A stretch of 28,190 nucleotides of DNA from positions 1 to 28,190 of the IMG/VR virus record IMGVR_UViG_3300027917_000150; one strand, written 5' to 3'. The notes beneath the pieces are model-generated. The model did not search any database. It worked only from the letters and a program-made list of their open reading frames with translations, and was not told where the DNA came from. Origin of the DNA: a virus. The stretch's first letter is position 1. Each line of letters begins with the position of its first letter. A program made the position numbers and the translations under genes. Of this stretch, positions 1,900-28,190 are shown piece after piece.

Positions 1900-4800
1900 C
1901 TAATGACCCTGATGGACATACCCCCCAGAAGCATACCGCCGGACTGTGTTCTGCACTTCCGAGAGGAACTCTTCCGTCTCCGGGTGTTTACTCTTCACAT
2001 TGTTTATGAACTGCTCATCCACTGCATCCAGACCGGTGCCTTTGGCGATAGCCTCATTCACCCGCTTGGGTAATTCCTTGCCAGTGTATTTGATGATCTT
2101 GTCCGGGAACCATATATTCCCCACCGGGCCCGCCATGCCCACAGAGAAGGCCAGCCTTCGGGTGTCCATGCTCGTGCGCTTTCCAGCTGGGATGAAGGGC
2201 TGTATCGGACGATCTCGTACACTGTACTCGCCCCCAAACTGTCCACTGCCGCCATAGCTACCAGAGTACCCACCGCCTCCATACCCCACCCCTGTGTAGG
2301 ATCGGATAGTATCAGCCTTGTCCTTCTGGTAGTACTTAGCCCACTCGGGATTCAGAGCCGCATACTCCTCAATCAGGGAGCCGTAGTTTCGGTAGGCCTG
2401 AGCAAATTGTGGGTTGGACTGTCGATAGGCTTTACGCCCGGACTCATCCAAGTTCCAATACTCGCCCAGCTCTGCAGAGAATCCCGGATAGGTTTCCCCA
2501 TCCAGCCACTCGGCTTTGGCCTCCTGAGCCCTACGAGCTGTGGAGCGTTCGTGCAGTTCTTGGTCCGTAGGCTGTAGGCTAAACCCTAAAACCCCTGCCG
2601 CACGTTCAGCTATGCCAAGTTGCTGGCTGTAATAGTCCAGATCAGTGATCTCAATCTCATCACCAGCATCCCACATGTAGGACTCAATGAAGCTCTCATC
2701 TCCGCCCAACTCTATGAACTTGTCCTTGAATTCGGTGTTTCGATACCCCGGAGGAATAGCTCCCAGAATGTCACTGCGACGGTTGTCAAGGAGAGCCTCT
2801 TCCTCTCCATCCTCCGCCATAGCGTCTTGGAGCATCCGGTAGTCTAGGTCCCAGAAGTCTCGGCCCTTCAGAGCTTCCATGATGTCTACAGGGTCGAACC
2901 GGTCGCCGTATTCTGCCGTGATCCACTGCATCATCTGCAGGTCGTCCGGCCTCTTACTCTCGCCGAATTGTCTCAGATAATTCCGAGAGGCCAGCTCATA
3001 GTCTTCATTCTTCTTCCCATCTACCGCATCGAACAGTCCGGACAGGTAGTGTTCTTGGTACGCCCACATAATGGCGTCGTCGACCGTGTCATTGTCCTTC
3101 TGCCATTCCCGGAATCCTTCAGGGGTAGCTATCTCTAACAAACGACCAATAATGTCCTTCGGTTGGTTCAGCTCCGGATGTAGCCACTCTATGTTCGAAA
3201 ACTGCTTCCACAAAGCCCCGGATGCCGACACCATCATCGCCAAGTTCTCAGGGGCTAAATACTCCTCATATTCCTTCTCGAACTCTTTATAAGAAGTGTG
3301 CTTGGACTTATCGTAGAATGGAAGGTCTTCTTGGACAATTCTGAAGAACAGGTTCACCATGTCTTCGTAAACCAGTACCTTGGGCTTATACCCAACGTAC
3401 CAAGTCTTGAAGGCCTCAGCATACATGTCCTCCATCTCGAGCATGCCCCGTCTGGCCATGTAATCTGCATAGATCGCTTTACGAGTCTGCTTATCTCCAA
3501 CGGGGGCCTCTCTCAAGGATATATCACGTTCATATCTCAAGGAGTCCAAAGCCTTGAAGTAGGCCCGGGTCTGTTGATCTTCCTGAATTTGCATCAGGAG
3601 AATTTCATTCCGAGCTGTGGGGTCTCGAACGGCATCGCCCTCTGGAGTAGTGACCCAACCAATTTGGTCCCGCAGGTTTGATATAAGACCCTGAGGATCA
3701 GAGTACGCCCGATCTACATAGTGATCCCAGCGTTCCTTAGCTCTCGTCGGTAGGTCAAAGATTGCCGCCACGACTTCATTATTCAGACCATCCTGCAGAG
3801 CCATGATATCATTCTTCAATAGGATCAATTCTGCGTCGGCGTCTGTGTGTATGCGCCCATACTGACCGGTGAAATAACCGAAGCCCCGTAGATAGTATTC
3901 GCTGTTCTCGACCTCCGATCGGGTCTGGAGCCAGTATTCCCGAGCCTGTGGATTATCTCGGTCCTTCAGAATCTCCAGCTGTTCATTGATCCACAGCATG
4001 GTGTCCTCACCGTAGAAGTCGTCCCCCCTGCGCTCTCGCTCTTTGATAATCTCTTCCCTACGATCGGCTAGGAGTTTTACAACAACCCGGGTGTCCTGCT
4101 CTTTGTAGGCAATTGCCTGTTCTGCCAGCAAAGCAGATGCCTCCGGGTTCTTACCATTAGCGATGTCTTCCGTGGCCTTGGTGAGAACTGCCTTCTCGAT
4201 CAGGTAGTCCTTCCAGCTAACTTCCGGTAACATAAAATCTGCCACCCAAGGATGTAGCTTGTACAGGGACTGGCGTAGGTGTCGTCTCCAGTTCGGAGGA
4301 AGAATGAGGTCTAGCTGTGGGATTATGGACCACCGGGGCGTATCGTTCACATCCAGAATGTTGGTAGCGTACGCCATCTCCTGAATGTAAGGGAATGGGG
4401 TAATACCGAACATTCGTCCGGCTTCCCAAATATATCTGGCGGCGGCTGTAACTGGGCTCACGTCTTCCCGCTCTTCATAGTCAGGCCACATGTAGTTCAT
4501 TGGCAGAGCGAACCGGAAGGACAGCGGACCCGTAGCATTGAACCAAATGTCCGTACCCGGGATCGGCAATCGCCCTCTGGTAGAAGGCAGTGGATCACCA
4601 TACCGGTTTATCAGGCCATGCTCTATAGCCACCCTCTCAGAGTGTTGCATGTACTTCATATAAGCAGTGGCCAGCCAAGGACTCTCAACCATGAGCTTGG
4701 TCCACATTGGTAGGGATCGGGCGGGGAACATGTAGAAGGGGATAATATAACCCTTGATGAACCCCTCAATGTTGTTGTAGTTGGTGTAGTCCAACATCCG

Positions 4801-7800
4801 TTCATTGGTGAAGTTTACTGCACCATTGAAGGTCTGCCCCAAGAACTCTCCGCCATAGTTAGCCGCATCGATTCCTTGGATCATGAGATCGGCGTATTCA
4901 TCTCCAAGAGCGGTCAGGGCTCGAGCCTGATCCTCCGCCAGCTTAGTCATGAAGATCGATCCATCATTGAGCCCACCAAGGACGTGTCCACGAAGAGCTG
5001 ACATGGACTCGCCGGTTGCCCGAAGTTCTGTCTCGGACATCACGATCTGCCTCATGGCAGTCGCAGTTCCCGGCATGTAATTATCTAGAGGGGGAAGATT
5101 GAAAGTGGGCCTTGCGCCGTGTTGTCCTTGGGCAATCCAGTTGTATTGGGACGTGATGTATTCCCGATAATTCTGGATCACATCGGCGGCGAATATGTCC
5201 CCACGATTTAGGGCCGCATCCCGTAACTCATCCAAATAGGATCGGTACTCGCCCAAACTATTTACTTCCTTCGGGAATCTCAGCCCACCTTGGGTCTCCT
5301 GTAAGATGACCCACGTCTCGTCCACAACCTGTTCGGCATGGTCCCGGGACGCCTGCTGAGATGCTCTCTCCTCTGCTGAAGGAACCGTTACTTCTATCTC
5401 CACATCTTCTGGTATGAATGGCCCAGCGATCGGATCATTCAATACTTCCTCGAAACGACTTCCAACCCCATCTCCGAAGAAAGTTCTTTGGAAGTCTCTC
5501 AGGACATCTGGGTCCTCAACCCAGTTACTCCCACTCATAAACTCATCTGCAAATGAACCATCCCAATACTGCGGGGACAGCCTAGCGTCGTCGGACAAGC
5601 GGATGCCGGTCAATCGGCCTTCCTCAATTCGGAACTCAAAGCCGTGTGTAGCAACCTCTCCATTGACGTCCCGAGATGCCATAACGAGGTCAGCCACGCT
5701 GGGAGCCTCATTCTCATTCAACCGCCGGACAAGCTCTTTCATCCCGTCTTCGGTCCCGGCTAGTTCATAAAGCTCTTCCATAACGGCACGAGCGTTGTCA
5801 TAGTAGGTCTTCCGCATGGAGTCTACCAGAGCCCACCGCTCTGCCCGATTGCCCTGATATGGATTTGGATATGAATTCCTCAGGAACCCCCGGTACAGTC
5901 CCGACTCTCCGGTCGTAATAATAGTGGCATGTACCTTGTCAATATACTGGACGGTACCATCTATCAGGTCCATCTGCTCTGTGAGCATCTTAACGGACTC
6001 GGTGTCCCCACTATCTAAAGCTAATTTCAGGTTGATCTTAGCGTTCTGTCTGGCGACTATTAGATCATCTTTGGCCTCGAACCACTTAGCTCGAGTGGCA
6101 TTGTGAGCCTCGGCGGACGCACGAGCTCGCTCCCAAGTATCCATGGTGTCTTCGCCAGCGAACTCACGATAATCAGCTCGATCATCGGCAACTGCGGCCT
6201 CATCCGATCGAACAGCGTCTGCAACAGGATCACTTACATCCGTCTCTTCTACCCGACCGAACTCATCACGAGGAGCATCGGCATCCATGGGCTGGGGTCC
6301 CCGCACATCATCAGGGGCTCGAACTTCTTCCAAGGCATCTTCGAATGCCCGAACTTCTATCTCAATCTTATCGGGGGTAGTAAGGTCAGCCCCATTCTCC
6401 CAATATTTGGACCGGTCTCCATGACGGATGTGAGACTCTTCATGGGCAATTAGGAAATCCCTGATCTTCTCGGGGGTATCCAGTTCCTCCCGAAGAGTAT
6501 CTATGGTAATACCCCTAGACTCCAGTCGTCGGAGAACCCGAGCCTTCTGCTTGGACGCCTCCGATCCCCCACCGCCTTGAATGTGTTCGAAGAATTCATC
6601 TACAGTAATATTGCGTTTGATCCGTATCTGACCTTCGGGGGTTGTAGTAGCCAAAGCACCATGTGGTAGCTCATCTACTTCCTCTATGGTAGGGGCTCCC
6701 CACCCTCTCTCAACGAAAGCATCCTTCTCAGCTCTCTTGGCGGTTAAATTGGTGTTGATCTCATCCAATTGGTTTTGGATTTCCGCCCGTCGGGCTCTCA
6801 GGACATCATCCTCTTCTTCTGAGAATGACAGTTTTAGTTGGGAATCTTCCGGACCCAGCCTGTTATTTATGTGGTCCAACTCTTCCTGAAGCTGATTACG
6901 TCCCCTTCGAAGGTGGTCAATTTCGTTATCGAACTCGGCAATCTTCTGTTCCCGATGTCTTAGCCAAGCCTCTGCTCTGCGTCTCTCCACAATAGCGTCA
7001 TTGGCGGCTTGAGCTTCCTCGGGGCTGGTTGCGGCAGTTGCGGATACATGGTTTGGATCAGAGTAAGATGTAGCCTCTGCGGCAACATTCTGCTCCATGG
7101 CCCTATTCACTTCGTCCGCCCGCTCACGGATTGTGTTCTCTATCTTGGCGAACACATTCCCGACCGCCGCCTCACCTAGCTCATCCGCCTCTACCAGTAA
7201 CAGCAGGTCGTCCATTATGGTGGATGCAATTCGTCTGGCGTTCTCCGGACCAACCGCCTCGGACAGTTCATCAAACCATCCCTCGGGGAAGTACAGACCG
7301 AAGGGTGTCTTACCCGCTTTCAGGTCCGCCATCTGGCTTACTAGAGCTTTGAGCTTGGCCGGATTATTCTTCGAGGCGTACCTAGCCGCCATAAACAGGT
7401 CTTTGGTTTCTTGGGCTAGATCGTCGGTAAGACCTAGAGACTTCACTCTCAATTCAATTAGGTCCTCGACCATCCTGAATTCCTTCACGAAGGCCGGAGC
7501 ATACACACGTATACGCAGGGAGGTTTCCATGGCGGAGTTTATCGCCATCCACCCATTTACCCATGCTTCCCATGCATTCTTTGAGCCCTTAGCCCCATCC
7601 AAGAATATGTCCAAGAACCCCAACTTCGGCCACCAGCCCTCAGCAATTCGGCTGTTCAAGTTCCAGCCTGTCTCCGTGGTGACAGAAGCGAAGCCGCCCG
7701 GAACGTCATGGGGGATGAATGGCGTCATGTCAACGAGGGTCGCCATGTCATCCATGAGACTTCCGCCGGACAGTATCATACGCAGGGATGAGTCTAAGAA

Positions 7801-10545
7801 GTTGATCACTGTAAAGCCGGGACGAGCAGGCAAGATTGCTTTAACCCAGTTCATGCGAAGCCAATTAGCACCCCGGTACATGGATTCTAGGTGCTTCTGG
7901 GGAATCTTACCAAGTAGCTTGGCCCGATCCGGGTTCTTCTGAACCAGCTCCATCCACCACTTGGTGAATGTACCCTCTTGGGGACCATCCTTCCACAGAG
8001 ATTTTGTTTTCAGGAACGCATCTTCTACGGCATTCCCAAGAGCTTGGTTTACATTCCGGAAATCATCAACATACCGCTGAGCCTGTTGTCGCAAGTGGCC
8101 CAGCTCTTCTGCAGACAGGAGGGGGTGTCCGGGTTCTATGGGCTGTCCGCTCCTGATTGCCTCTCTACGAGCAGTGGTCCACTCCTCTAATATTCGAGCG
8201 GCCTCATCAGCGTCGAAAGCATCCACACCTCTCTTGCCTTCCATGGCCTCGTCAATGAGCTTAGAGAGCTGGGAATTATATACTTCGTCGACAGCCCCAT
8301 CAAAAATCTTTATGAAGTCAGCTGGGTCTGTAATACCAAGGGTTCTAAGAACACCCTTGGAGCCTAACAGCCGGACCCGGTCTCCGAGGGAGAGTCCAAC
8401 TTTGTTCAATTTAGCGAGCTCATCCATGCGTCCGTACACGATGGCGGCAAAAGCCGCTCGCACTTGCTTGGTGCTTCCCAGAGAGCGCATCATCTTACCG
8501 CTCACACTGAGAACATCACCGGCCACCCAAGTCGCCATGGTCCGGGTAGACTGCTCCAGCATTGTTGCTCCCCAATTGCGGAGCGGCTGGATCGGACTCA
8601 CGAAGTCATCGGCGTGGCCGAATCCTTCATAGGCAAATCCCATAAGCTCATCAAGATATTTTGTTCCCTTGGCGGCTCTAGCGGCGTCGTCAATTAGCTT
8701 TGCGGCACCCTTGAATGGACCCTTCAATACAATGCCGGGTACCTTGAATATGTGCTTCAGGGGTTTCAGGAGCAGGCCAAATACAGCTCCGGGGATGTAG
8801 TTAGTGGGGTCAAAGAATGCTTCGCCCATGAGCTCAGACGCTGGGTCCGAGAACCGTTCGGTAATGTCATGGACTTCCCACTTCTCCAACCATCCGCCCT
8901 TCTGGAGTGTGGCGTCTGCAATTGCTTGGAGAGCTAACTCTTTGCGTTCATCAGAATCTGGGGCCATTGACCATGTATATCGGAAGGCATGGTCAGTGTA
9001 CTCGGGATTCATATTGGCCATGTCATTCTGAGCCTTGATGGCTATCAGCATGAGAGACCTAGCTTCCTCCGTCATATCTCGAACAAGCTGTCCCGTTGGG
9101 TCCTGCTGATAGAGCTCTATGGAATTGGTGTTTACCTCATCCATGATCTCCAAAGCCCGAGTGTAATTGCCAGTCTTCTCTTGTTCAATCTCAGCATAGA
9201 TTACCTGAGCCTGCCGGAGCTGATCCTTGGAAGCCCATCCCATCATCTGAACGTCTGCGTCTGTCAGGGAGTCCACATCCACGTTGATGGGGTTGCCTAT
9301 GAAGGACTGCCCAAACAGCTTGGACTGGTCTTTGTCTATGCCATACTGTTCCCATAGGTGAGCTTTGTCCGCATTTACTTCATCCCAGAACTTCTGTCGG
9401 AACCGATCATAATGCTTGGTTGCTTCATACATATTACGGCTTGCGTCGGACAAGAACGTCACACCAAACAAACGGAACCGCTCACCCAGAGTCATGTCCT
9501 TCCGCTGTTCGTGCTTCTGTATTAACTGCCAGTAGTCTGCCTTCGAACCGGCCAAAGCATCGTTCTTCTCTTCTTGGCTCATCCGTTGCCACATGTAAGC
9601 CCCGGTTCGAGCTTCTGGGCCATACTGCAGGTCTCCGAAGGCAATCCTATAGGCATCAGACAGAGACCCGGAGGTACCAACCTTCACACCATATACAAGG
9701 AATTCCGGTAAAGCTCGGGCCCAAGCCGCTACGGCTGGATACCAAGTTGTATTGGATAGAGTTTGATTGAAGTTTCGGAAGGCGGCATTCATGGACTGCC
9801 AAGCCCCAATAAGTCCCGTCTCCTCTCTTGGGGTTATTGGGAGAGCAGTGCCGCCCATGCCTTCCACACGATAGGGGGTAGTTTCTAGGTACTTCTGGTT
9901 CTCTTCATGCTCTTCTTGAAGAGTCTTGATCCGTTGGAGGGCCTGTTCATCAGTTATGCTTTGAATCTGTAGGGCCGCAAGCTCTTTACTGATCTCATCT
10001 TGTCGATCAAACGTCCGCTGTCGTTGCCGATTGGCCTCAGCCCGCTCTTCCTCACTCTTGACGAACTGTTGCTTCATGGCTTGAGCGGTGTACTGCTCGG
10101 CTCGATAGTGCTTAAACAGCTCACGGTTCCCGGGTTCATCGGGAACTCCATACTGCTCTTCTAGTTCTTTACCGGACAGGGAATCTAGGCGACCCAAAAC
10201 CTCGTCCATAGGGTGGTCGCCACCGGGGCGATAGCGAGGGCCCTTGGGGTCCAAGTCGTACTGGTCCATAATACGTTCGGGGGTACGACCTAAATTTATC
10301 CCCTTGGTTGCTTCCATTAGAAGCGTTTCGGGGGATTTAGGAGTCTCCTTCGGAGGTTCTGGTGCTCTTGCTCCCGGTTGGGGCTGTTGTTCTTGACGAC
10401 CAGTCTGGATAAATCGTCTGAATTCAGGAGCCTGCCAAAATTCCCTAGGTGGTGCGGACTCTCCGGTTCCGGCCTCTTCATGCTCTTGGCGGCGAGTAGT
10501 AAGCTCCCCTAATTGCCTACGAATAGATTCTAGAGGATTGGCCAT
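1900..10545 (-). CDS. Giant 2881-residue virion-type protein with HExxH peptidase motif
   Basis: The longest gene in the window, starting at ATG 10545 with a TAATG overlap to the gene before. Visible regions: a charged, Pro-rich N-terminus (1-120) and coiled coil (about 150-210); a hydrophobic patch (about 583-608); an ARPGF-x-VINFLDS-like segment near 905; a long coiled coil (about 1188-1232); the zinc-peptidase motif HEESHIRH at 1368-1375, with candidate third ligands at E1395/E1397 (EIEVRAFEDAL); a segment IIPFYMFPARSLPMW near 1940, of a kind I associate with very large phage proteins; many helical stretches; and a Gly/Tyr/Ser-rich linker (about 2752-2773) before the C-terminal domain. Such giant genes beside portal and capsid genes often encode internal or ejected virion proteins. 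I saw no N4-type RNA polymerase motifs. A role in ejection, envelope passage or head maturation is inference. Confidence 0.7.
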   Translation of the reverse strand: MANPLESIRRQLGELTTRRQEHEEAGTGESAPPREFWQAPEFRRFIQTGRQEQQPQPGARAPEPPKETPKSPETLLMEATKGINLGRTPERIMDQYDLDPKGPRYRPGGDHPMDEVLGRLDSLSGKELEEQYGVPDEPGNRELFKHYRAEQYTAQAMKQQFVKSEEERAEANRQRQRTFDRQDEISKELAALQIQSITDEQALQRIKTLQEEHEENQKYLETTPYRVEGMGGTALPITPREETGLIGAWQSMNAAFRNFNQTLSNTTWYPAVAAWARALPEFLVYGVKVGTSGSLSDAYRIAFGDLQYGPEARTGAYMWQRMSQEEKNDALAGSKADYWQLIQKHEQRKDMTLGERFRLFGVTFLSDASRNMYEATKHYDRFRQKFWDEVNADKAHLWEQYGIDKDQSKLFGQSFIGNPINVDVDSLTDADVQMMGWASKDQLRQAQVIYAEIEQEKTGNYTRALEIMDEVNTNSIELYQQDPTGQLVRDMTEEARSLMLIAIKAQNDMANMNPEYTDHAFRYTWSMAPDSDERKELALQAIADATLQKGGWLEKWEVHDITERFSDPASELMGEAFFDPTNYIPGAVFGLLLKPLKHIFKVPGIVLKGPFKGAAKLIDDAARAAKGTKYLDELMGFAYEGFGHADDFVSPIQPLRNWGATMLEQSTRTMATWVAGDVLSVSGKMMRSLGSTKQVRAAFAAIVYGRMDELAKLNKVGLSLGDRVRLLGSKGVLRTLGITDPADFIKIFDGAVDEVYNSQLSKLIDEAMEGKRGVDAFDADEAARILEEWTTARREAIRSGQPIEPGHPLLSAEELGHLRQQAQRYVDDFRNVNQALGNAVEDAFLKTKSLWKDGPQEGTFTKWWMELVQKNPDRAKLLGKIPQKHLESMYRGANWLRMNWVKAILPARPGFTVINFLDSSLRMILSGGSLMDDMATLVDMTPFIPHDVPGGFASVTTETGWNLNSRIAEGWWPKLGFLDIFLDGAKGSKNAWEAWVNGWMAINSAMETSLRIRVYAPAFVKEFRMVEDLIELRVKSLGLTDDLAQETKDLFMAARYASKNNPAKLKALVSQMADLKAGKTPFGLYFPEGWFDELSEAVGPENARRIASTIMDDLLLLVEADELGEAAVGNVFAKIENTIRERADEVNRAMEQNVAAEATSYSDPNHVSATAATSPEEAQAANDAIVERRRAEAWLRHREQKIAEFDNEIDHLRRGRNQLQEELDHINNRLGPEDSQLKLSFSEEEDDVLRARRAEIQNQLDEINTNLTAKRAEKDAFVERGWGAPTIEEVDELPHGALATTTPEGQIRIKRNITVDEFFEHIQGGGGSEASKQKARVLRRLESRGITIDTLREELDTPEKIRDFLIAHEESHIRHGDRSKYWENGADLTTPDKIEIEVRAFEDALEEVRAPDDVRGPQPMDADAPRDEFGRVEETDVSDPVADAVRSDEAAVADDRADYREFAGEDTMDTWERARASAEAHNATRAKWFEAKDDLIVARQNAKINLKLALDSGDTESVKMLTEQMDLIDGTVQYIDKVHATIITTGESGLYRGFLRNSYPNPYQGNRAERWALVDSMRKTYYDNARAVMEELYELAGTEDGMKELVRRLNENEAPSVADLVMASRDVNGEVATHGFEFRIEEGRLTGIRLSDDARLSPQYWDGSFADEFMSGSNWVEDPDVLRDFQRTFFGDGVGSRFEEVLNDPIAGPFIPEDVEIEVTVPSAEERASQQASRDHAEQVVDETWVILQETQGGLRFPKEVNSLGEYRSYLDELRDAALNRGDIFAADVIQNYREYITSQYNWIAQGQHGARPTFNLPPLDNYMPGTATAMRQIVMSETELRATGESMSALRGHVLGGLNDGSIFMTKLAEDQARALTALGDEYADLMIQGIDAANYGGEFLGQTFNGAVNFTNERMLDYTNYNNIEGFIKGYIIPFYMFPARSLPMWTKLMVESPWLATAYMKYMQHSERVAIEHGLINRYGDPLPSTRGRLPIPGTDIWFNATGPLSFRFALPMNYMWPDYEEREDVSPVTAAARYIWEAGRMFGITPFPYIQEMAYATNILDVNDTPRWSIIPQLDLILPPNWRRHLRQSLYKLHPWVADFMLPEVSWKDYLIEKAVLTKATEDIANGKNPEASALLAEQAIAYKEQDTRVVVKLLADRREEIIKERERRGDDFYGEDTMLWINEQLEILKDRDNPQAREYWLQTRSEVENSEYYLRGFGYFTGQYGRIHTDADAELILLKNDIMALQDGLNNEVVAAIFDLPTRAKERWDHYVDRAYSDPQGLISNLRDQIGWVTTPEGDAVRDPTARNEILLMQIQEDQQTRAYFKALDSLRYERDISLREAPVGDKQTRKAIYADYMARRGMLEMEDMYAEAFKTWYVGYKPKVLVYEDMVNLFFRIVQEDLPFYDKSKHTSYKEFEKEYEEYLAPENLAMMVSASGALWKQFSNIEWLHPELNQPKDIIGRLLEIATPEGFREWQKDNDTVDDAIMWAYQEHYLSGLFDAVDGKKNEDYELASRNYLRQFGESKRPDDLQMMQWITAEYGDRFDPVDIMEALKGRDFWDLDYRMLQDAMAEDGEEEALLDNRRSDILGAIPPGYRNTEFKDKFIELGGDESFIESYMWDAGDEIEITDLDYYSQQLGIAERAAGVLGFSLQPTDQELHERSTARRAQEAKAEWLDGETYPGFSAELGEYWNLDESGRKAYRQSNPQFAQAYRNYGSLIEEYAALNPEWAKYYQKDKADTIRSYTGVGYGGGGYSGSYGGSGQFGGEYSVRDRPIQPFIPAGKRTSMDTRRLAFSVGMAGPVGNIWFPDKIIKYTGKELPKRVNEAIAKGTGLDAVDEQFINNVKSKHPETEEFLSEVQNTVRRYASGGYVHQGH
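3479..3511 (-). repeat. 33-bp dispersed repeat, copy 1 (in the giant gene)
   Basis: Matches 25136-25168 at 32 of 33 positions in the same orientation and reading frame. Here it encodes EAPVGDKQTRK near residues 2345-2356 of the giant protein; the other copy encodes EAPAGDKQTRK at the C-terminus of a small protein. The only mismatch is 3500 against 25157. Confidence 0.9.
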
Positions 10546-14366: not shown

Positions 14367-15911
14367 TTAATCTCTTAGCTCCGGAGGAAGAGCCGCTTCC
14401 ATCTCACGCTGGATCGGATCGACGTAAGTGAATTCGGAGATATCCCCGAATGGTGACTCGACCACGATCTCTTCCGTGTTATCCACTCCCCCTCTCTCTA
14501 CTGCGTCAAAGGCTGAGATAGCCAGAGCTGTTGCAAAATCCACCTTGTTGCGTCCCTGTCTAATAGGTTTGGTGAGCATGTAGCCCTTCGACTTCACATC
14601 CACTGCCGCAAATCTTATGTGTTCCCTAGCGTCATCGGCCACATAAGCCGCTAGTTTCCCCTGAACCAGAAGATCATACAAATTATGTGTGGCCGCAGTC
14701 ATTGTCGTCTGGTTCTGTGTAAACTCCTCCGTACGAATTCCGAACTTCTCCAGATTGGTCATCGCTTGATGCATCTGTGTTGGGTCGTAGCGAACGATGG
14801 TAATCGGGTGGTATCGATGCATCTCTTTGATGTAGTCTTCCACCACCGTGAAGTCGAACTTATCATCCGGAGATGGTTTCCATATTCGATGAAACGCTAT
14901 TCCTACCTCCTGCGTGGTCGGGTTGAAATACGTTCCTACCACCGCAGTTGAGTCGTGCTTCGGTGCCGCATCCACTCCCACAGATATCGGAAGTCCAAAG
15001 GACCCTGAGTCCTTGTAGTAGCGGAGTGGCCCATCCAACTTCAAAGCCGCTTCATCCCAGTACCGGATCGGAATGAATTCCTCTTTGGTTGTGACCCACT
15101 GATTTCTATGCAACCGCAAGAAGTCATTGGGTCGGAGCGTGGCCATCTGCTCGTCATAATACTCAGAAGTCTGCCACGGCATTCGGGGAACTGTGTCCCA
15201 AAACACGAATACCTTGCCAAGACGTCTACAGACAGGCTCGCCGTTATCGTCGACGATGTCAGCGAGCTCCGGGACCGGCTCCCCGTTTACGAACGCCATC
15301 TCATACAGGTCCCAAAGAAGTTCAGATTCTCCTTCGAACCCCGCATAAGTAACGATTACTCTCAACGGGTTCCGTACAGTAGGCGGCGGGGTCATCTCCG
15401 CCCACAGTTTACGTGAGCGTTCTGACGTATAACCCCACAGCTCGTCCCATAAAGTTAGACCCTGACGACCTCCAGCTACTGATCGATACTCAGAAGCCAA
15501 TGCACGAACGAAGGTACCGTTGGGATAGTATACGACTGACTTCTGGGCCTTGAAGCCCTTCTTACGTGCATCATAGGCAATGTCGTCGTAGACACGAGAT
15601 TGTGCCTGCTCTTCGTCATTAGCCAAGCAATATATTTCCGAATTTGCTGGTCCCTCTTCGGCATACCAAGCCCCAATCCCAGCGGCCAACGTCGTCTTGC
15701 CGGACTTCTTGATCGTGCTGTACACGATTGTAACATACGGAAAATTGCCATTCTCGTCCGGCGTAAGACAATGTTCCAATACTCTTCGTTGGGTATGGTC
15801 GTCGAGAATATGTAACTTGCCCTCTCCGGTCCATCCCTCTAATAGGTCCCAATCTTCCCGGATGAAGAAGCCAGCGTCCGGGTCATCGGCCCACTGAACA
15901 AATCCCCGCAA
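14367..15911 (-). CDS. terL: Terminase large subunit (packaging ATPase and nuclease)
   Basis: A 514-residue motor protein that cuts and pumps phage DNA into the prohead. The ATPase domain shows a Walker A-type STIKKSGKTT (65-74) and a Walker B LTLWDE (152-157) with catalytic E157. The C-terminal RNase H-like nuclease has VGVDAAPKHD (D313), RYDPT (D376) and KVDFATAL (D458), three acidic residues expected to bind metal. Length and domain order are normal. The start appears to be TTG at 15911 (TAATTG overlap with the previous stop), with AGG 7 nt upstream; no ATG or GTG exists before the ATPase core. It lies between a Gly/Arg-rich gene and the portal. No separate small terminase is recognisable nearby. 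Confidence 0.96.
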   Translation of the reverse strand: MRGFVQWADDPDAGFFIREDWDLLEGWTGEGKLHILDDHTQRRVLEHCLTPDENGNFPYVTIVYSTIKKSGKTTLAAGIGAWYAEEGPANSEIYCLANDEEQAQSRVYDDIAYDARKKGFKAQKSVVYYPNGTFVRALASEYRSVAGGRQGLTLWDELWGYTSERSRKLWAEMTPPPTVRNPLRVIVTYAGFEGESELLWDLYEMAFVNGEPVPELADIVDDNGEPVCRRLGKVFVFWDTVPRMPWQTSEYYDEQMATLRPNDFLRLHRNQWVTTKEEFIPIRYWDEAALKLDGPLRYYKDSGSFGLPISVGVDAAPKHDSTAVVGTYFNPTTQEVGIAFHRIWKPSPDDKFDFTVVEDYIKEMHRYHPITIVRYDPTQMHQAMTNLEKFGIRTEEFTQNQTTMTAATHNLYDLLVQGKLAAYVADDAREHIRFAAVDVKSKGYMLTKPIRQGRNKVDFATALAISAFDAVERGGVDNTEEIVVESPFGDISEFTYVDPIQREMEAALPPELRD

Positions 15912-18047: not shown

Positions 18048-18922
18048 AGCACTAACCCCATCTCAATGACCTCGTTGACTATAACAGAGTCGAGAACGTT
18101 CCCCATATGTCTTGCTGTACGATTCTTTGTAGTGATTTGGTATAGCCCGCTATCTTGAATCGCATTGTCCCACTCTCGCATTCGTCCCATCGCCATCTGG
18201 TTAGAATCAGGTAGGTGCTCAAGAAGTAAATCCCGATAACCAAGAAACTGACAATGATGGCCATGGCCAAACGCTTCCACTGTACCCGTCTTAAGTAAGA
18301 TTTCATCGTCTCCATGCACTTTCAGGTATAGTTCTATGGGCATACCTCTTCCCATCGCATCGTCTTCCAGCCACTCTCTTGGAAACCACTGTCCAACCTC
18401 TGTCTTTACCGTCCCATCGTTTCCCTTAAAGTCATAGTGAGATTGATCCAAGTAATGCGGAAACAGCGATTTCACCGGCACTCCGCTGACCTTCGCTACG
18501 TTGGGGAAATTTGTCAGCAAATGTATTTGTTGCATAAACCAGTTCTCATAAAACAGAATGTCGTCGTCGGAGTATCCAAATATCCGAGTCCTACTAGCTC
18601 CCATCAGAACCCTCAGGGCCGCAGGCTTTCCTATATTATGGTGCGATAAGATCACCTGATCGATATATCCAGCCGCTACCATCTCAAGTAGCTTTGTCTG
18701 CCACTCCCGACACGATCCATTGTCAAACACCACTACCTGATATTCTTCCCGGAAGGGGAAAGAATTCATCATCATGCTATTCAAAGATAGCTCTATGATC
18801 TGCTTTCTGCCCTTGTGATACCCACTCATATAGGGCAGGTGAGTGATCATTGACAGGGTGTAGGCGGGTGGGTCCGACTTCACCAGCTTATCCCGATTCG
18901 GGTTCATTCCAAGTCTAGCCAT
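18044..18922 (-). CDS. GT-A type (family 2-like) glycosyltransferase
   Basis: A 292-residue enzyme predicted to transfer a sugar from a nucleotide donor. It shows the GT2-like elements VVVFDNGS (about 63-70), NIGKPAALRVLM (96-107) and the metal-binding YSDDD (117-121). The rest is mixed alpha/beta without a membrane segment, so it is probably cytosolic. The start at 18922 is chosen because it makes the tight ATGGCTAG overlap with the preceding methyltransferase stop; an upstream start at 18979 would overlap that gene far more. It ends the sugar cassette. The acceptor (virion protein, DNA or host surface glycan) cannot be told. Confidence 0.8.
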   Translation of the reverse strand: MARLGMNPNRDKLVKSDPPAYTLSMITHLPYMSGYHKGRKQIIELSLNSMMMNSFPFREEYQVVVFDNGSCREWQTKLLEMVAAGYIDQVILSHHNIGKPAALRVLMGASRTRIFGYSDDDILFYENWFMQQIHLLTNFPNVAKVSGVPVKSLFPHYLDQSHYDFKGNDGTVKTEVGQWFPREWLEDDAMGRGMPIELYLKVHGDDEILLKTGTVEAFGHGHHCQFLGYRDLLLEHLPDSNQMAMGRMREWDNAIQDSGLYQITTKNRTARHMGNVLDSVIVNEVIEMGLVL

Positions 18923-19511
18923 GTGGTTTCCTCGCAAATAGGGTGTATTCTGTGGGCTTCTCTTCCTTCCTAAATGCATAGACCGGCCAAAAGTCTCTCA
19001 GCTCCGGGGGAATTGGAGCAAGTACCTTCTCCTCGTGCTCCCAAATCCAGTCTTCTACAGCGAACATGTCGATCGATGCCAGACCATTCTCGTGCCAATA
19101 CCTGCGCCGATTGGCATCATCCCAAACCACCCAGCCTCCCGGCTTCAAGTAATTTTGGACTGAATTCCAGAATCTAACCCGTCCCCGCCCATCTATGAAG
19201 ATAAGATCATATTCCCGAGGAGCCAACCTAGGCAACTTGACTCCGGCGTTCTCTATATCGGAAGCAAAGATCATGGTAGCGGAACCAAATACATTGGACC
19301 TGCTGTCATACAAAAGTCCTCGGCTGTAAAGCTCATTACCCACCCCAGTATACCACCTAGGATCGGTCTCGAATGTAAGCAAGTACTCCACCCGCTCTGC
19401 AAGCCATAGGGTAGAGCCTCCCGCTCCATGCTCCATAACGATCGAGTCTTGATCTATTAGTCTCTCAAAAAACTCAATCGCTAACTGGGGTAGCCATGGT
19501 ACGGCTTTCAT
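18915..19511 (-). CDS. Class I SAM-dependent methyltransferase
   Basis: A 198-residue Rossmann-type enzyme. Motif I is VMEHGAGGST (25-34), with an acidic residue after strand 2 (FETD, 47-50), then YDLIFIDGRGR (strand 4) and LKPGGWVVWDD (motif near strand 5). It lacks a target-recognition region of the DNA-methylase kind, so a sugar or other small-molecule acceptor is more likely in this cassette. ATG 19511 has a strong AGGAGG at 5 nt, and the gene overlaps the previous one by 38 nt. Methylation of a sugar residue is inferred from neighbours. Confidence 0.8.
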   Translation of the reverse strand: MKAVPWLPQLAIEFFERLIDQDSIVMEHGAGGSTLWLAERVEYLLTFETDPRWYTGVGNELYSRGLLYDSRSNVFGSATMIFASDIENAGVKLPRLAPREYDLIFIDGRGRVRFWNSVQNYLKPGGWVVWDDANRRRYWHENGLASIDMFAVEDWIWEHEEKVLAPIPPELRDFWPVYAFRKEEKPTEYTLFARKPHG

Positions 19512-23755: not shown

Positions 23756-23965
23756 TTATCCTTTCGACTCAAAGTCTTTACAATTCAGGTCCTGATTCTT
23801 GAACATCGGGTGCAGATACTCGATCTTGATCTCAGGTTCCCGGAACCAATTGCCATTGTACTCCACCGGATTGGGAACAAGACAGGCGGCTCCCTCCCCA
23901 GTCATTTTGAAATGCTTGCAGTTTCCGCAATGCACCGGCTTAGGTTTCCTCTTGAATAGGCTCAT
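23756..23965 (-). CDS. Small Cys-containing protein
   Basis: A 69-residue protein with C13, C16, C28 and C62 in an HCGNCKHF context, suggesting a zinc site. The N-terminus is basic (FKRKPKPV). ATG 23965 follows GGAAGAAG and the gene overlaps the previous one by 26 nt. Small CxxC proteins of this type are common in phage early regions. Function unknown. Confidence 0.7.
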   Translation of the reverse strand: MSLFKRKPKPVHCGNCKHFKMTGEGAACLVPNPVEYNGNWFREPEIKIEYLHPMFKNQDLNCKDFESKG

Positions 23966-24167
23966 CTTCTTCCGTCTCTTCCCAATATATTACTCTCTCG
24001 ATCTTATGGGGTCCCCACATCTTTGTAACCCCATGGGGGGTTACAACACCCGCCCCCATCTTAAGAATATTCTCGGCTCGTTTCATCGCATGGGTTTCTG
24101 ACTTCTGGTCCTCTTCAATTACCCCTGTGTATTCATCATCCAAAAATACTTGCAGTTTCCAGCTCAT
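23940..24167 (-). CDS. Small protein, unknown function
   Basis: A 75-residue protein with strand-rich start (WKLQVFLDDEYTGVIEED), a helix (SETHAMKRAENILKM) and an acidic tail. ATG 24167 is in an ATGA overlap and its ribosome site GGAG lies in a 17-bp sequence (24161-24177) that also starts the neighbour's coupling site. No family recognised. Confidence 0.65.
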   Translation of the reverse strand: MSWKLQVFLDDEYTGVIEEDQKSETHAMKRAENILKMGAGVVTPHGVTKMWGPHKIERVIYWEETEEDEPIQEET

Positions 24168-24177
24168 TTAAAACTCC
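24161..24177 (-). repeat. 17-bp stop/start coupling repeat, copy 1
   Basis: Identical to 24364-24380. On the coding strand it reads GGAG, then TTTTAAATGAGCT: ribosome site, C-terminal SFK codons of the upstream gene, the overlapping stop and start (ATGA), and the second codon of the next gene. Confidence 0.85.
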
Positions 24178-24370
24178 AATCATCATCCGAATACTCGGGG
24201 TCATTCACCTTGTACCGCCTAACTCCATAGTCTTCTTTCAATCTATTCCGAATGGGGGTACGGAGGTCATTCTCTTGGATATACTCCTCGAGCGTCTCCA
24301 CAGATGAGAACACCCCTTCTATATAAGACCACGACCAATCGTAAGACTCCAAAATGTATACGTAGCTCAT
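24164..24370 (-). CDS. Small acidic protein, unknown function
   Basis: A 68-residue protein beginning MSYVYILESYDWSWSYIEGVFSS, then a helix (ETLEEYIQEN) and an acidic C-terminus. The opening (a YVLESYD-like strand, then xGVFSS and a helix) resembles small phage proteins in which a strand and a helix follow a VYxL start, but I cannot name a family. The start at 24370 makes an ATGA overlap with the gene before, with GGAG at 7 nt. Confidence 0.68.
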   Translation of the reverse strand: MSYVYILESYDWSWSYIEGVFSSVETLEEYIQENDLRTPIRNRLKEDYGVRRYKVNDPEYSDDDWSFK

Positions 24371-24380
24371 TTAAAACTCC
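24364..24380 (-). repeat. 17-bp stop/start coupling repeat, copy 2
   Basis: Identical to 24161-24177. It joins the gene ending at 24367 to the gene starting at 24370. The flanking sequences differ, so only the junction itself is repeated. Confidence 0.85.
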
Positions 24381-24561
24381 CCGTTACATTAAAACGGTGC
24401 CGAAGAACATCCTTCTCACGGTACCTTTCCAGCTCATTTAATGCACGTTGAATGGTCAGCCTGCTCATACAAGCATCACAATCTTTGAACTCACAATTGG
24501 CAACAACGTTACCTGCAAAGTCCACGCTAACGAACCACTTATGTACGTGTTTCTTGGTCAT
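24367..24561 (-). CDS. Small His/Cys-containing protein
   Basis: A 64-residue protein starting MTKKHVHKWFVSVDF, then CEFKDCDAC (CxxxxCxxC), and a basic helix (TIQRALNELERYREKDVLRHR). His and Cys positions could hold a metal. ATG 24561 is preceded by GAGG at 3 nt; GTG/TTG starts a few codons earlier are possible. It overlaps the end of the gene before by 23 nt. Unknown function. Confidence 0.62.
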   Translation of the reverse strand: MTKKHVHKWFVSVDFAGNVVANCEFKDCDACMSRLTIQRALNELERYREKDVLRHRFNVTGSFK

Positions 24562-24796
24562 ATGCCTCACCAAGAAGCGTTACCCCAATTCGCTTGATCT
24601 CTTGAGGGGGGACAAAGATCAGTTCCCTCTCTTTGTTCGGGACCGGATTGTCCTCCCACCAAGAGAAGCCTTCCCTTGATATACTCTCAGCAACCTTGTG
24701 GGGCATATTGGTAAGCCGAACGATCGGTTCCCGGACGTACACCTGACCATCCCGGGTGAAGACCGCCACCCTAAAATTATACCCAGTGATTCCCAT
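24539..24796 (-). CDS. Small protein, unknown function
   Basis: An 85-residue protein. It has strands FRVAVFTRDGQVYVREPIVRL, a helix PHKVAESISREGF, an acidic turn SWWEDNPVPN and a strand ELIFVPPQEIKRI; this strand-helix-Gly-Phe-strand order recalls the DUF4177-like small gene at 10.6 kb, though without clear homology. ATG 24796 has GAGGA about 5 nt upstream and lies in a TAATG overlap with the membrane mini-gene, which argues against a GTG start at 24883. Confidence 0.68.
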   Translation of the reverse strand: MGITGYNFRVAVFTRDGQVYVREPIVRLTNMPHKVAESISREGFSWWEDNPVPNKERELIFVPPQEIKRIGVTLLGEAYDQETRT

Positions 24797-24885
24797 TATT
24801 TCCTCTTCCGCCTTGTCTCTAGCCACAGGATCACGGCACCAATCATCATGCCTACTGCAAGGATCAAATGATAACAACGGCACAT
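24796..24885 (-). CDS. 29-residue membrane mini-protein
   Basis: A short gene with GGAGG 8 nt before ATG 24885. The product starts MCRCYH, has one membrane segment of about 16-18 residues (LILAVGMMIGAVILWL) and ends in a strongly basic tail (ETRRKRK), so the C-terminus should stay in the cytoplasm. It fits exactly between its neighbours (TGA, ATTT, ATG before; TAATG after). Possible small regulator of an envelope protein; no function can be assigned. Confidence 0.6.
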   Translation of the reverse strand: MCRCYHLILAVGMMIGAVILWLETRRKRK

Positions 24886-25125: not shown

Positions 25126-25380
25126 TTATTTCTCCTTACGAGTCTGCTTATCTCCAGCGGGGGCCTCTTCAAAGGGCTCCCATAGTTCGTAAGGTACTCC
25201 GGTTTCTAGGATACATTCGTATAAGGTCCTATCTTCCCTCATTTGCACCTTGGATCGAATATGTAGGATTTTAGTCCGCTCGTCCCAAGCTCCCCGTCGA
25301 ACATATTGTCCGGCGAATAGAGTAGTATCTGACTCAATAAACACAATGTGGTGCACTTTTACGTTCTTCATTTTAGTCAT
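25126..25380 (-). CDS. Small protein ending in a duplicated peptide
   Basis: An 84-residue protein with alternating strands (KVHHIVFIESDTTLFAG, KILHIRSKVQMREDRTLYECILETG). Its last 11 or so residues, EAPAGDKQTRK plus EK, are encoded by a 33-bp sequence repeated in the giant gene. The start at 25380 uses a GGAGG-type site embedded in the end of the paralogue before it. Function unknown. Confidence 0.68.
   Translation of the reverse strand: MTKMKNVKVHHIVFIESDTTLFAGQYVRRGAWDERTKILHIRSKVQMREDRTLYECILETGVPYELWEPFEEAPAGDKQTRKEK
25136..25168 (-). repeat. 33-bp dispersed repeat, copy 2 (small accessory gene)
   Basis: 32 of 33 bases match 3479-3511, in the same frame. Here the copy lies at the 3' end of a small gene. 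Confidence 0.9.
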
Positions 25381-25576
25381 CCAACAGCCCCTCCGGTAGG
25401 GCTTCGAGGGCATCCTTCAACTCTTCCCTATTCGGCCATCCAATAGGGTAATCTATCTGTTGTACCACCTTATCAGCCGCCTTAACTACTCTGATAAGGG
25501 CTTCCACTTCCTCTGTGATATCGATGTCGTCCCCGTCTTCGCTATAGCCTATGACCGTATGATACCACTTACTCAT
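25373..25576 (-). CDS. GLLDE-tag paralogue 4
   Basis: A 67-residue protein. After a variable N-terminus (MSKWYHTVIGYSEDGDDIDIT) it has the shared domain EALIRVVKAADKV...EELKDALEALPEGLLDD. The family pattern is LxRVxxAAxxV, a variable middle, then (E/L)xALxALP(E/K)GLLD(E/D). The end of the gene contains GGAGG, 8 nt and ATG for the gene at 25380. ATG 25576 itself uses AAAGGA within the end of paralogue 3. Probably a short helical domain of unknown role; the strong repetition suggests expansion of a useful accessory module. Confidence 0.75.
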   Translation of the reverse strand: MSKWYHTVIGYSEDGDDIDITEEVEALIRVVKAADKVVQQIDYPIGWPNREELKDALEALPEGLLDD

Positions 25577-25802
25577 CTAGCAATCCTTTCGGCAGTGCTT
25601 CGAGGGCTTCATTCAATTCCATATATAGCGGGTGGCTCCATTTATGTGGACTATCCCAATCTGCGTATATCTTCTTGGCTACCCGAACTGCTCGGAGAAG
25701 ATCGCCAAGATAGTCCGGGCAGGGGGCAAAGCAATAATCATAATCCAGATAGTCTGCTATTCTGAAGTTGATGTCGTCGTATATCAGACTCTTGGGTTTC
25801 AT
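25569..25802 (-). CDS. GLLDE-tag paralogue 3
   Basis: A 77-residue protein. The N-terminus is distinct (MKPKSLIYDDINFRIADYLDYDYCF), followed by the family domain LLRAVRVAKKI...LNEALEALPKGLLDE. ATG 25802 is in an ATGA overlap with the stop of the membrane mini-gene; a GTG at 25811 is less likely. Its last codons hold AAAGGA and ATG for paralogue 4. Function unknown. Confidence 0.75.
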   Translation of the reverse strand: MKPKSLIYDDINFRIADYLDYDYCFAPCPDYLGDLLRAVRVAKKIYADWDSPHKWSHPLYMELNEALEALPKGLLDE

Positions 25803-25894
25803 TTCACGCACCTTGCAATAAGGCCAATCATTGCTCCAATTACAATAGCTAATGCAAGCATATCCCCGGTGCTCAGTTCTTTATCCCTCTTCAT
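25799..25894 (-). CDS. 31-residue membrane mini-protein
   Basis: A short gene whose ATG (25894) lies out of frame inside the GLLDE codons of paralogue 2, with AAGGA 7 nt upstream. The product has a charged N-terminus (MKRDKELSTGD) and one membrane segment (MLALAIVIGAMIGLIA) ending RCVK. It fills the gap between paralogues 2 and 3, ending in an ATGA overlap. Third membrane mini-protein of this kind in the window. Function unknown. Confidence 0.62.
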   Translation of the reverse strand: MKRDKELSTGDMLALAIVIGAMIGLIARCVK

Positions 25895-26084
25895 CCAGTA
25901 ATCCTTCCGGCAGGGCTTCGAGGGCATCATACAATTCTTCCCAACCTGACCCCCCAGAGCTCTCATCCACCACATAGGCCGCCCTTGCTACTCGGAGAAG
26001 CTGCCACCAATGCAGGCGTGTCTTCCATATACCCCGCATAAATCGTTCGTGCTCCTCGGCGTTGGCTCCGTATTGTTCACTCAT
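25881..26084 (-). CDS. GLLDE-tag paralogue 2
   Basis: A 67-residue protein with variable N-terminus (MSEQYGANAEEHERFMRG) and the family domain QLLRVARAAYVV...ELYDALEALPEGLLDE, extended by EG. The start at 26084 is set by AAGGA 7 nt upstream, inside the end of paralogue 1. Its own end provides the site for the 31-residue membrane protein. Function unknown. Confidence 0.76.
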   Translation of the reverse strand: MSEQYGANAEEHERFMRGIWKTRLHWWQLLRVARAAYVVDESSGGSGWEELYDALEALPEGLLDEEG

Positions 26085-26322
26085 CCAACAATCCTTCCGG
26101 TAAGGCGGAGAGGGCATCACAAAACTCTTTTACTGCATCCTCTGGCCCATACGGTTCAACTTTCTCAGCCGCTCGAGCTACTCTGATGAGGGCATCGAAG
26201 CTGTCTATTATCTCTTTACCACCACAATCGCAGTCGTCATCGGTGTAGCCGTAGTACCATACCTTACAATTTCCATCATGGACATTCTTCATTAACAGCA
26301 AATCCAAGAAAATTAGTGTCAT
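26077..26322 (-). CDS. GLLDE-tag paralogue 1
   Basis: An 81-residue protein. A hydrophobic start (MTLIFLDLLLMKN) is followed by a Tyr/Asp/Cys-rich part with CDCGG, then the family domain ALIRVARAAEKV...EFCDALSALPEGLLDE. ATG 26322 makes an ATGA overlap with the gene before, with GAGGA upstream; a later ATG at 26292 is possible. The stretch CDCGG may be a metal site or incidental. Function unknown. Confidence 0.74.
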   Translation of the reverse strand: MTLIFLDLLLMKNVHDGNCKVWYYGYTDDDCDCGGKEIIDSFDALIRVARAAEKVEPYGPEDAVKEFCDALSALPEGLLDE

Positions 26323-26549
26323 CGGGGGTCCTCATCTATCTCCTTTCGATCTACGTACTCCCCATCTATCCGATACACCGAGTGCTCCCCAACCCTCCCA
26401 CATATACTACAAGGCTCGCCCTCGTAGCTGGAGTTGGGGTACATCGCATGACCGCGGTGGGGCATTCCATAGGACTTACCGTCAATCACAAACAGGCTCC
26501 CAGCAGGCCACGTCACGACTCTATAGGGTACCTTCCACATTAGGCTCAT
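26319..26549 (-). CDS. First gene of the 26.8-kb unit, small CxxC protein
   Basis: A 76-residue protein with strands around KVPYRVVTWPAGSLFVIDG, a CSICGR motif and an acidic C-terminus (DRKEIDEDPR). I prefer ATG 26549; a GTG at 26558 would add three residues. Neither has a strong ribosome site, only GAAAG, which fits control by the structured leader in front of it. It is the promoter-proximal gene of the leftward unit. Function unknown. Confidence 0.65.
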   Translation of the reverse strand: MSLMWKVPYRVVTWPAGSLFVIDGKSYGMPHRGHAMYPNSSYEGEPCSICGRVGEHSVYRIDGEYVDRKEIDEDPR

Positions 26550-26560
26550 ATCTTTCACAT

Positions 26561-26778
26561 TCTTTCAGCCTGCCGCCCCGCTCAGGTCGCTCATCAGGTC
26601 AACGGTTAGATGCCCTCAATGACGGGGCGGACAAGCCTCACCTATTGGCAATCAAAAGAGATAGGGCTCCCGTACGGCACCGATCCGGAACCTATGAATA
26701 TTTTTATAATCCAGCCCCAAAATGGGCCCCTGTTCAGGAAAAATTTCCTGATCGGGAGGGTGAAACAGCTCTCCAACA
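26561..26778 (-). promoter_or_regulatory. Structured ~220-nt leader of the leftward accessory operon
   Basis: The stretch between the promoter and the first gene has no convincing gene. CCGCCCCG (26630-26623 on the transcript) can pair with CGGGGCGG (26580-26573), an 8-bp GC-rich stem enclosing about 42 nt, ending about 20 nt before the first start codon. A second element is the palindrome at 26735-26750. The leader is long for a phage gene, so a cis-acting RNA role is plausible but unproven. Confidence 0.45.
26735..26750. promoter_or_regulatory. Palindrome, candidate operator
   Basis: CAGGAAA, AA, TTTCCTG: perfect 7-bp arms, about 28-43 nt downstream of the predicted start of the 26.8-kb promoter. 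The position suits a repressor site, or the stem may form in RNA. No repressor gene is visible. Confidence 0.4.
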
Positions 26779-26783
26779 TATCC

Positions 26784-26812
26784 ATTCTACCATATATTCT
26801 TTTGAATGTCAA
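26784..26812 (-). promoter_or_regulatory. Sigma70-type promoter of the accessory operon
   Basis: TTGACA (26812-26807), a 17-bp spacer and TAGAAT (26789-26784), preceded by TGG (extended -10). It has the same ATATGG-TA core as the other two promoters. Predicted start near 26777. It lies at the switch between leftward and rightward genes. Confidence 0.9.
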
Positions 26813-26933
26813 GGCTAAATGTATAGGTAGATTGCCCAGCAACGAAATCCACAGACCTAATTCCAAATGTACCTACCCCACCCCACCACTACCCACCCGG
26901 GCCGGTAGCTGAATTGTGTGTATGCAGGGTCTG

Positions 26934-27101
26934 ATGGATCGGGAGATGGGTTTCAAGAGATCAACATTGAATTGGTGCTCCAGCCCTTCATATCAGCATA
27001 CTGTGCATGGCACACTATCATGCATGGTCCGCCATATGCACCCATTCAGCCCCACTAAGCCACCATCTACCGCTAATCACCCATACAAATGCGAGTTATA
27101 A
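26934..27101 (+). CDS. Doubtful short plus-strand ORF
   Basis: 55 codons starting ATG 26934 with AGGG 4 nt upstream; the product is Ser/His/Pro/Cys-rich. A second frame, 26918-27058 (GTG start, 46 residues, ending HGPPYAPIQPH), looks at least as protein-like but has no ribosome site. At most one can be real, and the stretch may be non-coding. From 27102 to 27224 I see only a 9-codon ORF after AGGAG (GTG 27126). Confidence 0.22.
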   Translation: MDREMGFKRSTLNWCSSPSYQHTVHGTLSCMVRHMHPFSPTKPPSTANHPYKCEL

Positions 27102-27187
27102 ATATGTTGCTACAGGAGCCCGCTCGTGCATTCAATGCATGTAGCTATCAAGTAAGCTCACCAACATCATATTAGTGGTACGCTTCT

Positions 27188-27248
27188 GTTCACCCGAGAC
27201 GGTTCACGAACACGGAGAGCACGTGTGGTTCACAACGCTCGGGTTCAC
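27188..27248. repeat. Four GTTCAC motifs in 61 bp
   Basis: GTTCAC occurs at 27188, 27202, 27228 and 27243 in the same orientation, three of them as GGTTCAC. One is part of GTTC-AC-GAAC, an imperfect dyad. Spacing (14, 26, 15) is near one and a half to two and a half helical turns. This may be an iteron-like or regulator-binding array. Confidence 0.4.
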
Positions 27249-27368
27249 AAGCTGACGACGCTCCATCCTCCCTTAGCTGTCACAGACCTAATCATTCAAA
27301 GACTGTTCAACTACGGCGGCGTACTGCCAATGCAAGAACAAGTACACGCAGGCCGCCGCCTAGCGTAG
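27225..27368 (+). CDS. Small plus-strand protein, unknown function
   Basis: 47 residues from GTG 27225, with GGAG at 7 nt. The sequence has a helical centre with amphipathic pattern (AVTDLIIQRLFNYGGVLP) and basic, His-containing ends. It begins inside the GTTCAC-repeat stretch and ends 92 bp before the next likely start. The ribosome site and the protein-like centre support it; its shortness limits confidence. Confidence 0.45.
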   Translation: MVHNARVHKLTTLHPPLAVTDLIIQRLFNYGGVLPMQEQVHAGRRLA

Positions 27369-27460
27369 CAGTCCTCGTGACACGTCTGATCAATACCTTG
27401 CTTCTATCGAGCATATCGTTGATGCATCATACCAGTAGCATACGCAAGGGTCTGATCAAT

Positions 27461-27718
27461 GTGATCCACTGCGGTTGTTGCTATACTTGCTCACCAAATA
27501 TGTCCAGCTTCTACTACCGTATCACACCAGTCAAGCCGTGGCATATGATAAATCGTACGTCCACCCAGCGAATACGGGCAAAGGGACCAGCGAACTACGA
27601 AAAAACCAATACGCTGGTCCCATTACCCTTCTTCGACGGCACAACAATTATCATGGTATGTCCAATAGATGTTTGCTCCGTTCACTCGCAACAAGCCCGG
27701 TCCAAGAAGAGCACTTGA
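27461..27718 (+). CDS. Small plus-strand protein, unknown function
   Basis: 85 residues from GTG 27461, with AAGGG 10 nt upstream; the frame is open from 27377 and an ATG lies at 27500. The N-terminus has CGCCYTC; the body reads SSFYYRITPVKPWHMINRT, then LVPLPFFDGTTIIMVCP and a basic Ser/Lys tail. C-ending codons are common in this frame, favouring it over the overlapping frame at 27475-27753, which is also open. The gene contains a strong hairpin (27583-27621). Unknown function. Confidence 0.5.
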   Translation: MIHCGCCYTCSPNMSSFYYRITPVKPWHMINRTSTQRIRAKGPANYEKTNTLVPLPFFDGTTIIMVCPIDVCSVHSQQARSKKST

Positions 27719-27769
27719 TCGGTCTTGTCACTCCTTCACTCCGACCTAGGTAGCTTGACTGGTGTGATA
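27520..27769. repeat. Perfect 17-bp inverted repeat pair
   Basis: 27520-27536 and 27753-27769 are exact reverse complements, 216 bp apart. A chance match of this length within 250 bp is very unlikely. The pair brackets the end of a plus-strand gene. Confidence 0.85.
27583..27621. repeat. Perfect 10-bp stem-loop
   Basis: GGGACCAGCG and CGCTGGTCCC, separated by 19 nt that include a run of six A. It lies inside the outer 17-bp inverted repeat, so the two can nest. It may be a DNA or RNA structure used in replication or control. Confidence 0.8.
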
Positions 27770-27863
27770 GCTGGGATTAAGCTGGACCGTGTAAGAGAAA
27801 AGTGCATTTAGGAGCATGGTACAGCTAGAGCATTTCGGCTCCTCGACGAAAGGATGTATTGCA

Positions 27864-28190
27864 ATGTCACCTATCGTAGCTGGACCACAAATTTGCGGCT
27901 GTGGCGGACATCCACAGTGCTGTGGCGACGACGTGATCGTACAGGAGCATCTCGTTGCAGTCCACAGCATTCTAGAAGACTGGGGACTAGATTATTATCT
28001 AGGTCTGCACCCCAACGTCGATGTGAACATCCTATGCTGTGAAATCATTGGCACTGCCATGAATAGGATCAGTGGCATCATATGGCCACCCCAACCCGTT
28101 CACATCTCATGGCCGTTTGGCAAGCCATGCCCAGCATGTGCCGCAGGTGACGACGCTCACCTAGTTGATCATTATCCGCAAGACAACATC
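27864..28190 (+). CDS. Cys/His-rich plus-strand protein (3' end beyond window)
   Basis: An open frame of 109 codons from ATG 27864 to the window edge, with AAAGGA 9 nt upstream. An in-frame ATG at 27816 has AGGAG only 1 nt away and is less likely. The product begins with a Cys-rich segment (CGCGGHPQCCGDD), continues with a helix (VQEHLVAVHSILEDWGLDYYL) and a hydrophobic part (VNILCCEIIGTAMNRISGIIWPP), then CPAC followed by DDAHLVDHYP. The two Cys clusters and His residues suggest zinc binding. It is the clearest gene of the rightward unit. Family not recognised. Confidence 0.72.
   Translation, partial: MSPIVAGPQICGCGGHPQCCGDDVIVQEHLVAVHSILEDWGLDYYLGLHPNVDVNILCCEIIGTAMNRISGIIWPPQPVHISWPFGKPCPACAAGDDAHLVDHYPQDNI

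Follow-up and report, generated by a model that had tools for sequence, protein, structure and literature searches.

A viral contig of 28,190 bases, analysed over its whole length and referred to here as the window, carries four small genes (A to D; Table 1) whose products share a C-terminal motif ending in (E/K)GLLD(E/D), and in all four the codons for this tail hold a purine-rich SD together with, out of frame, the ATG at which the next gene starts (ggAAGGAttgttggATG, ggAAGGAttactggATG, gaAAGGAttgctagATG and GGAGGggctgttggATG). Is the tail peptide kept for what its codons do in the RNA, or for what it does in the protein? A sequence-only reading of this locus took the former position, proposing that the peptide is conserved since its codons must encode the next SD and start, and that the tail thereby serves as a portable coupling module. 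The observations set out below are probably explained instead by an orphan gene that was duplicated in tandem inside an interlinked phage operon of the ordinary kind.

Every confident gene of the contig lies on the minus strand, including those for the terminase and the major head protein, and a single gene of 2,881 residues (1900-10545, minus strand) is found between the head genes. The terminase has distant relatives in GenBank phages, at 22-25% identity among the matches listed, and 13 related IMG/VR contigs were found through it at 37-69% identity. The promoter-like site listed in Table 1 is probably the promoter of the small-gene operon, as judged by its sequence, and since no terminator-like site was found on the minus strand from there down to 22800, a single transcript probably spans the cassette. 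The approximately 1.6 kb at 26600-28190 is without a convincing minus-strand gene, contains inverted repeats of 17 nt (perfect; 27520-27536/27753-27769) and 24 nt (27569-27592/27612-27635), and is possibly a control region.

Table 1. Genes, promoter-like site and repeated DNA blocks of the window (negative values are overlaps in nt).
Feature	Position	Strand	Source
Major head protein	3-962	-	PHROGs
Terminase	14367-15911	-	PHROGs
Gene E, 84 aa, starts inside the tail of D (-8)	25126-25380	-	
Paralogue D, 67 aa, C-terminus LPEGLLDD*, starts inside the tail of C (-8)	25373-25576	-	
52-nt block, D copy (reference)	25377-25428	-	repeat family D1
Paralogue C, 77 aa, C-terminus LPKGLLDE*, overlaps the mini-gene (-4)	25569-25802	-	
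52-nt block, C copy	25573-25624	-	repeat family D1
Mini-gene, 31 aa, putative single-span membrane protein, starts inside the tail of B (-14)	25799-25894	-	
Paralogue B, 67 aa, C-terminus LPEGLLDEEG*, starts inside the tail of A (-8)	25881-26084	-	
52-nt block, B copy	25891-25942	-	repeat family D1
Paralogue A, 81 aa, C-terminus LPEGLLDE*	26077-26322	-	
52-nt block, A copy, includes the next gene's SD and ATG	26081-26132	-	repeat family D1
Gene Z, 76 aa, overlaps A (-4), may be a zinc ribbon (match below cut-off)	26319-26549	-	
Promoter-like site, TTGACA-17-TAGAAT, extended -10 TG	26784-26812	-	consensus scan, 11/12 matches

Among the neighbours of the paralogues, gene E shows no similarity to the four, and no relatives were found in searches with gene E and with a 181-residue neighbour gene. 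Because a second ATG is present at 25371, immediately beyond the stop of D, the start of gene E was placed by its SD spacing. The mini-gene between B and C has a weak codon-usage score that is not above the cut-off; a second membrane-like mini-gene of similar kind (24796-24885, minus strand; 29 residues, MCRCYHLILAVGMMIGAVILWLETRRKRK) overlaps its own next gene by 1 nt.

The four open reading frames are present on the minus strand as first described, with positive codon-usage scores for all, and C has a weaker alternative start, a GTG at 25811. Their common C-terminal domain of about 45 residues is real: in leave-one-out searches, where a profile of three paralogues was run against 5,258 stop-to-stop frames, each fourth member was recovered with an E-value of 4e-11 to 2e-8. 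When the last seven residues were removed from the profile the fourth paralogue was still matched (E 1e-4 to 7e-3), and the paralogy therefore does not depend on the tail alone. The N-terminal parts of A and D are also alike (WY..GY..D), and the tail of B, GLLDEEG*, is two residues longer than the motif originally described. An AlphaFold model of D built from five sequences (mean pLDDT 60) has two helices, at residues 22-40 and 50-58, and suggests with low confidence that the C-terminal domain is probably helical. The family matches nothing in the libraries searched (Pfam, PHROGs, NCBIfam, PADLOC and PDB), no hit lying above curated cut-offs or at a significant E-value; weak matches to leucine-rich repeat proteins span 11-18 residues at the C-terminus and were discounted as a local likeness. 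The place of A to D among small promoter-proximal genes suggests, as a guess, accessory functions of the host-takeover type.

The next gene overlaps the tails of A, B, C and D by 8, 14, 8 and 8 nt, respectively, such that the GLLDE peptide is accompanied by an overlapping gene in all four copies, each of them in the window. The SD and ATG stand at suitable spacing in each tail and the genes downstream are of different kinds, as the portable-module proposal would have it. Given the peptide, however, an SD-like 4-mer arises in every synonymous version of the tail; because the codons of the E-G or K-G dipeptide are always purine-rich, the SD follows from the peptide with no need of separate selection. 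The ATG arises in about half of the synonymous versions, as it requires only that Asp be encoded by GAT, which supplies its first two bases, and not by GAC. GAT usage in this phage is 0.48, and the Asp codon is GAT in four of four copies, for which the probability by chance is about 0.05. This is what would be expected with the ATG under selection, and it is an observation that counts in favour of the proposal and against our preferred explanation.

If the tail were conserved for its RNA role, its synonymous sites would be expected to be constrained. Codons were compared wherever two paralogues share an amino acid, with the expectation taken as a random draw from the codon usage of the phage; the comparison covers four sequences, and its pairs are non-independent. 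In the tail, 13 of 30 matched codon pairs are identical versus 10.1 expected (p 0.17), and without the GAT codon the count is 7 of 24 versus 7.0 expected. At the Leu, Gly and Glu positions of the tail, codons thus vary as usage predicts, and the GAT that makes the ATG is the sole exception, a result at odds with conservation of the peptide for an RNA function. That the peptide is most fixed in the tail, where synonymous sites are at chance, points to the peptide and not to the RNA. The first helix block has 19 identical pairs of 38 (10.1 expected, p 0.003), and DALEALP, directly upstream of the tail, has 28 of 36 (10.3 expected, p<0.001). At the four DALEALP sites (25394-25414, 25590-25610, 25908-25928 and 26098-26118, minus strand) codons are consequently far more alike than usage predicts, with gene conversion, recent duplication or a DNA/RNA element as candidate causes. 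RNA folding at the junctions is not in excess of that of shuffled sequences (z -0.01 to 1.61), a hairpin (AGCCCU..AGGGGCU) that would cover the ribosome site at the D/E junction was rejected as no better than shuffles, and an Rfam search gave no match.

The arrangement is moreover common in this phage. In a tabulation of 35 junctions from our own gene calls, with starts picked by SD and codon scores, 24 overlap; without the tails of A to D the figure is 20 of 31. An SD-like 4-mer stands just upstream of the start at 30 of the 35, lying inside the upstream gene where the junction overlaps. Overlapping neighbours and an SD in the end of the upstream gene, the two hallmarks of an interlinked (nin-type) operon, are both found here. 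An overlap of 8 nt also joins an epimerase gene to its next gene (VDGYG*) and the 198-residue gene at 18915-19511 to the one following (FARKPHG*), and overlaps of this length with unrelated tails occur in six related contigs (L026, L027, L028, L031, L032 and L035). The second of these junctions has its match in L026, where the 8-nt overlap is kept despite a changed tail (FARKPDA*). Five successive small-gene junctions of L026 overlap by 4, 8, 14, 7 and 4 nt, with tails of EEDEE, EVRDD, QDGNS, GPRGC and QKEEV, respectively. An SD and start within the upstream tail is, as read from these sequences, the ordinary arrangement in this phage. That part of the sequence-only reading in which the tails carry the next SD and start is thus upheld, and translation across them is probably coupled, while the view of the tail as a distinctive portable module finds no support.

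Homologues of A to D were sought in IMG/VR with the alignment, single proteins, a degenerate tail pattern and the DNA block, and by sequence in bacterial and archaeal genomes and GenBank phages, with none found; no homologue bearing GLLDE was found beyond this contig in the same three collections, and 18 contigs with the tail pattern include no convincing relatives. After the paralogues themselves, the best match in all eight leave-one-out searches is L026:56-277, drawn from the terminase relatives (and appearing in the search as an identical stretch, L037), which is weak when taken alone (E 0.2-1.2). It shares the layout of the family (LERVARMAQVV ... ALEEALKEIP ... at the C-terminus) and sits in a small-gene string upstream of a methyltransferase-type gene that, judged by eye and unaligned, resembles the 18915-19511 gene of the window. 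From these sequence features it is a probable, not a proven, homologue of A to D. It ends in PTWVFEEDEE, without GLLDE, and its next gene overlaps by 4 nt, which argues that GLLDE is not needed for the overlap arrangement.

Taken with the many unrelated tails that show the same geometry of 4, 8 and 14 nt, this candidate leaves the distinctive coupling module as the most improbable of the explanations weighed here, the four GAT codons notwithstanding. A second alternative operates at the level of DNA. A 52-nt block (GATGCCCTCGAAGCCCTNCCGGAAGGATTG..GGATGA) is repeated at the gene ends of A to D, with copies 69-83% identical to the D copy, and this block may be a recombination boundary used for expansion of the array, for conversion, or for the entry of genes behind a ready ribosome site. 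The likeness of the DALEALP codons is suggestive of exchange or gene conversion in the recent past, the block copies are followed by different genes, and a second, unrelated junction (GGAGTTTTAAATGAGCT) is exactly duplicated about 1 kb downstream. Plain tandem duplication, however, also accounts for the DNA similarity, a search for the block in other viral contigs found none, and no relative turned up in which another gene follows it; we consider the boundary unlikely. Slightly less likely still is its fuller form, in which recombination in the block would have repeatedly put a paralogue, the membrane mini-gene and gene E downstream of an SD and start already in place, the operon growing as genes are captured at coupled junctions.

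As to the second junction itself, GGAGTTTTAAATGAGCT is an exact repeat at 24161-24177 and 24364-24380 (minus strand), each copy holding an SD and an ATGA overlap at the end of genes of no obvious relation (tails GSFK* and WSFK*). Further repeats of 16-17 nt (24156-24171, 24426-24441, 24144-24160 and 23910-23926) overlap the gene start at GGAGTTTTAAATGAGCT and recur elsewhere in different reading frames, as though small DNA fragments had been copied from place to place.

Under the preferred explanation, tandem duplication, a small orphan phage gene would have been duplicated more than once within a polycistronic operon. The duplicated unit would extend to the gene's end and thereby bring with it the start codon and ribosome-binding site used by whichever gene follows. 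The four copies would have retained the C-terminal domain and its tail because they descend from one gene and because the protein is selected for, as their N-termini diverged. Ribosomes finishing the upstream gene probably reinitiate a few bases back at the SD-assisted ATG, as they would at the majority of junctions elsewhere in this phage, and this fits better than the unmasking of a hidden site because no junction folds more stably than its shuffles.

Interlinked genes are known from the ninR region of lambda (Kroger and Hobom 1982, cited in PMC8022706), and the nin genes are described as joined by ATGA (PMC8022706). Read in the same way as the window, lambda O to Q has overlaps of 4 nt at seven junctions and of 11, 23 and 34 nt at others, which agrees with that description. 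Both loci are strings of small genes with short start/stop overlaps and an SD inside the upstream tail, whereas the nin genes are annotated as different proteins and A to D form one paralogous set, three of whose four tail overlaps are of 8 nt rather than 4; no sequence relation between them is known. The start/stop overlap and the SD in the end of the upstream gene are likewise shared with termination-reinitiation pairs (PMC12548453, PMC6728339). According to a review of the subject, coupling is most efficient from -4 to +3 nt and declines with longer overlap, and an SD usually aids it and is not strictly required (PMC12548453), so the 8-nt junctions may couple moderately and the 14-nt junction less. 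Short conserved boundary sequences have been proposed to serve modular exchange in phages, including lambdoid phages, as discussed in PMC3029335. The window resembles these in its short repeats at gene boundaries, and it differs from what is discussed there in that its repeats are homologous gene ends, explained by duplication alone.

Were the 52-nt block to prove a recombination boundary, one would have a concrete example of how a small-gene operon of a phage grows. Where E-G or K-G precedes LLD[E/D], the peptide by itself nearly yields an SD and a start codon, and the locus illustrates how a striking coincidence between a peptide and a ribosome-binding site can arise from gene packing and paralogy.
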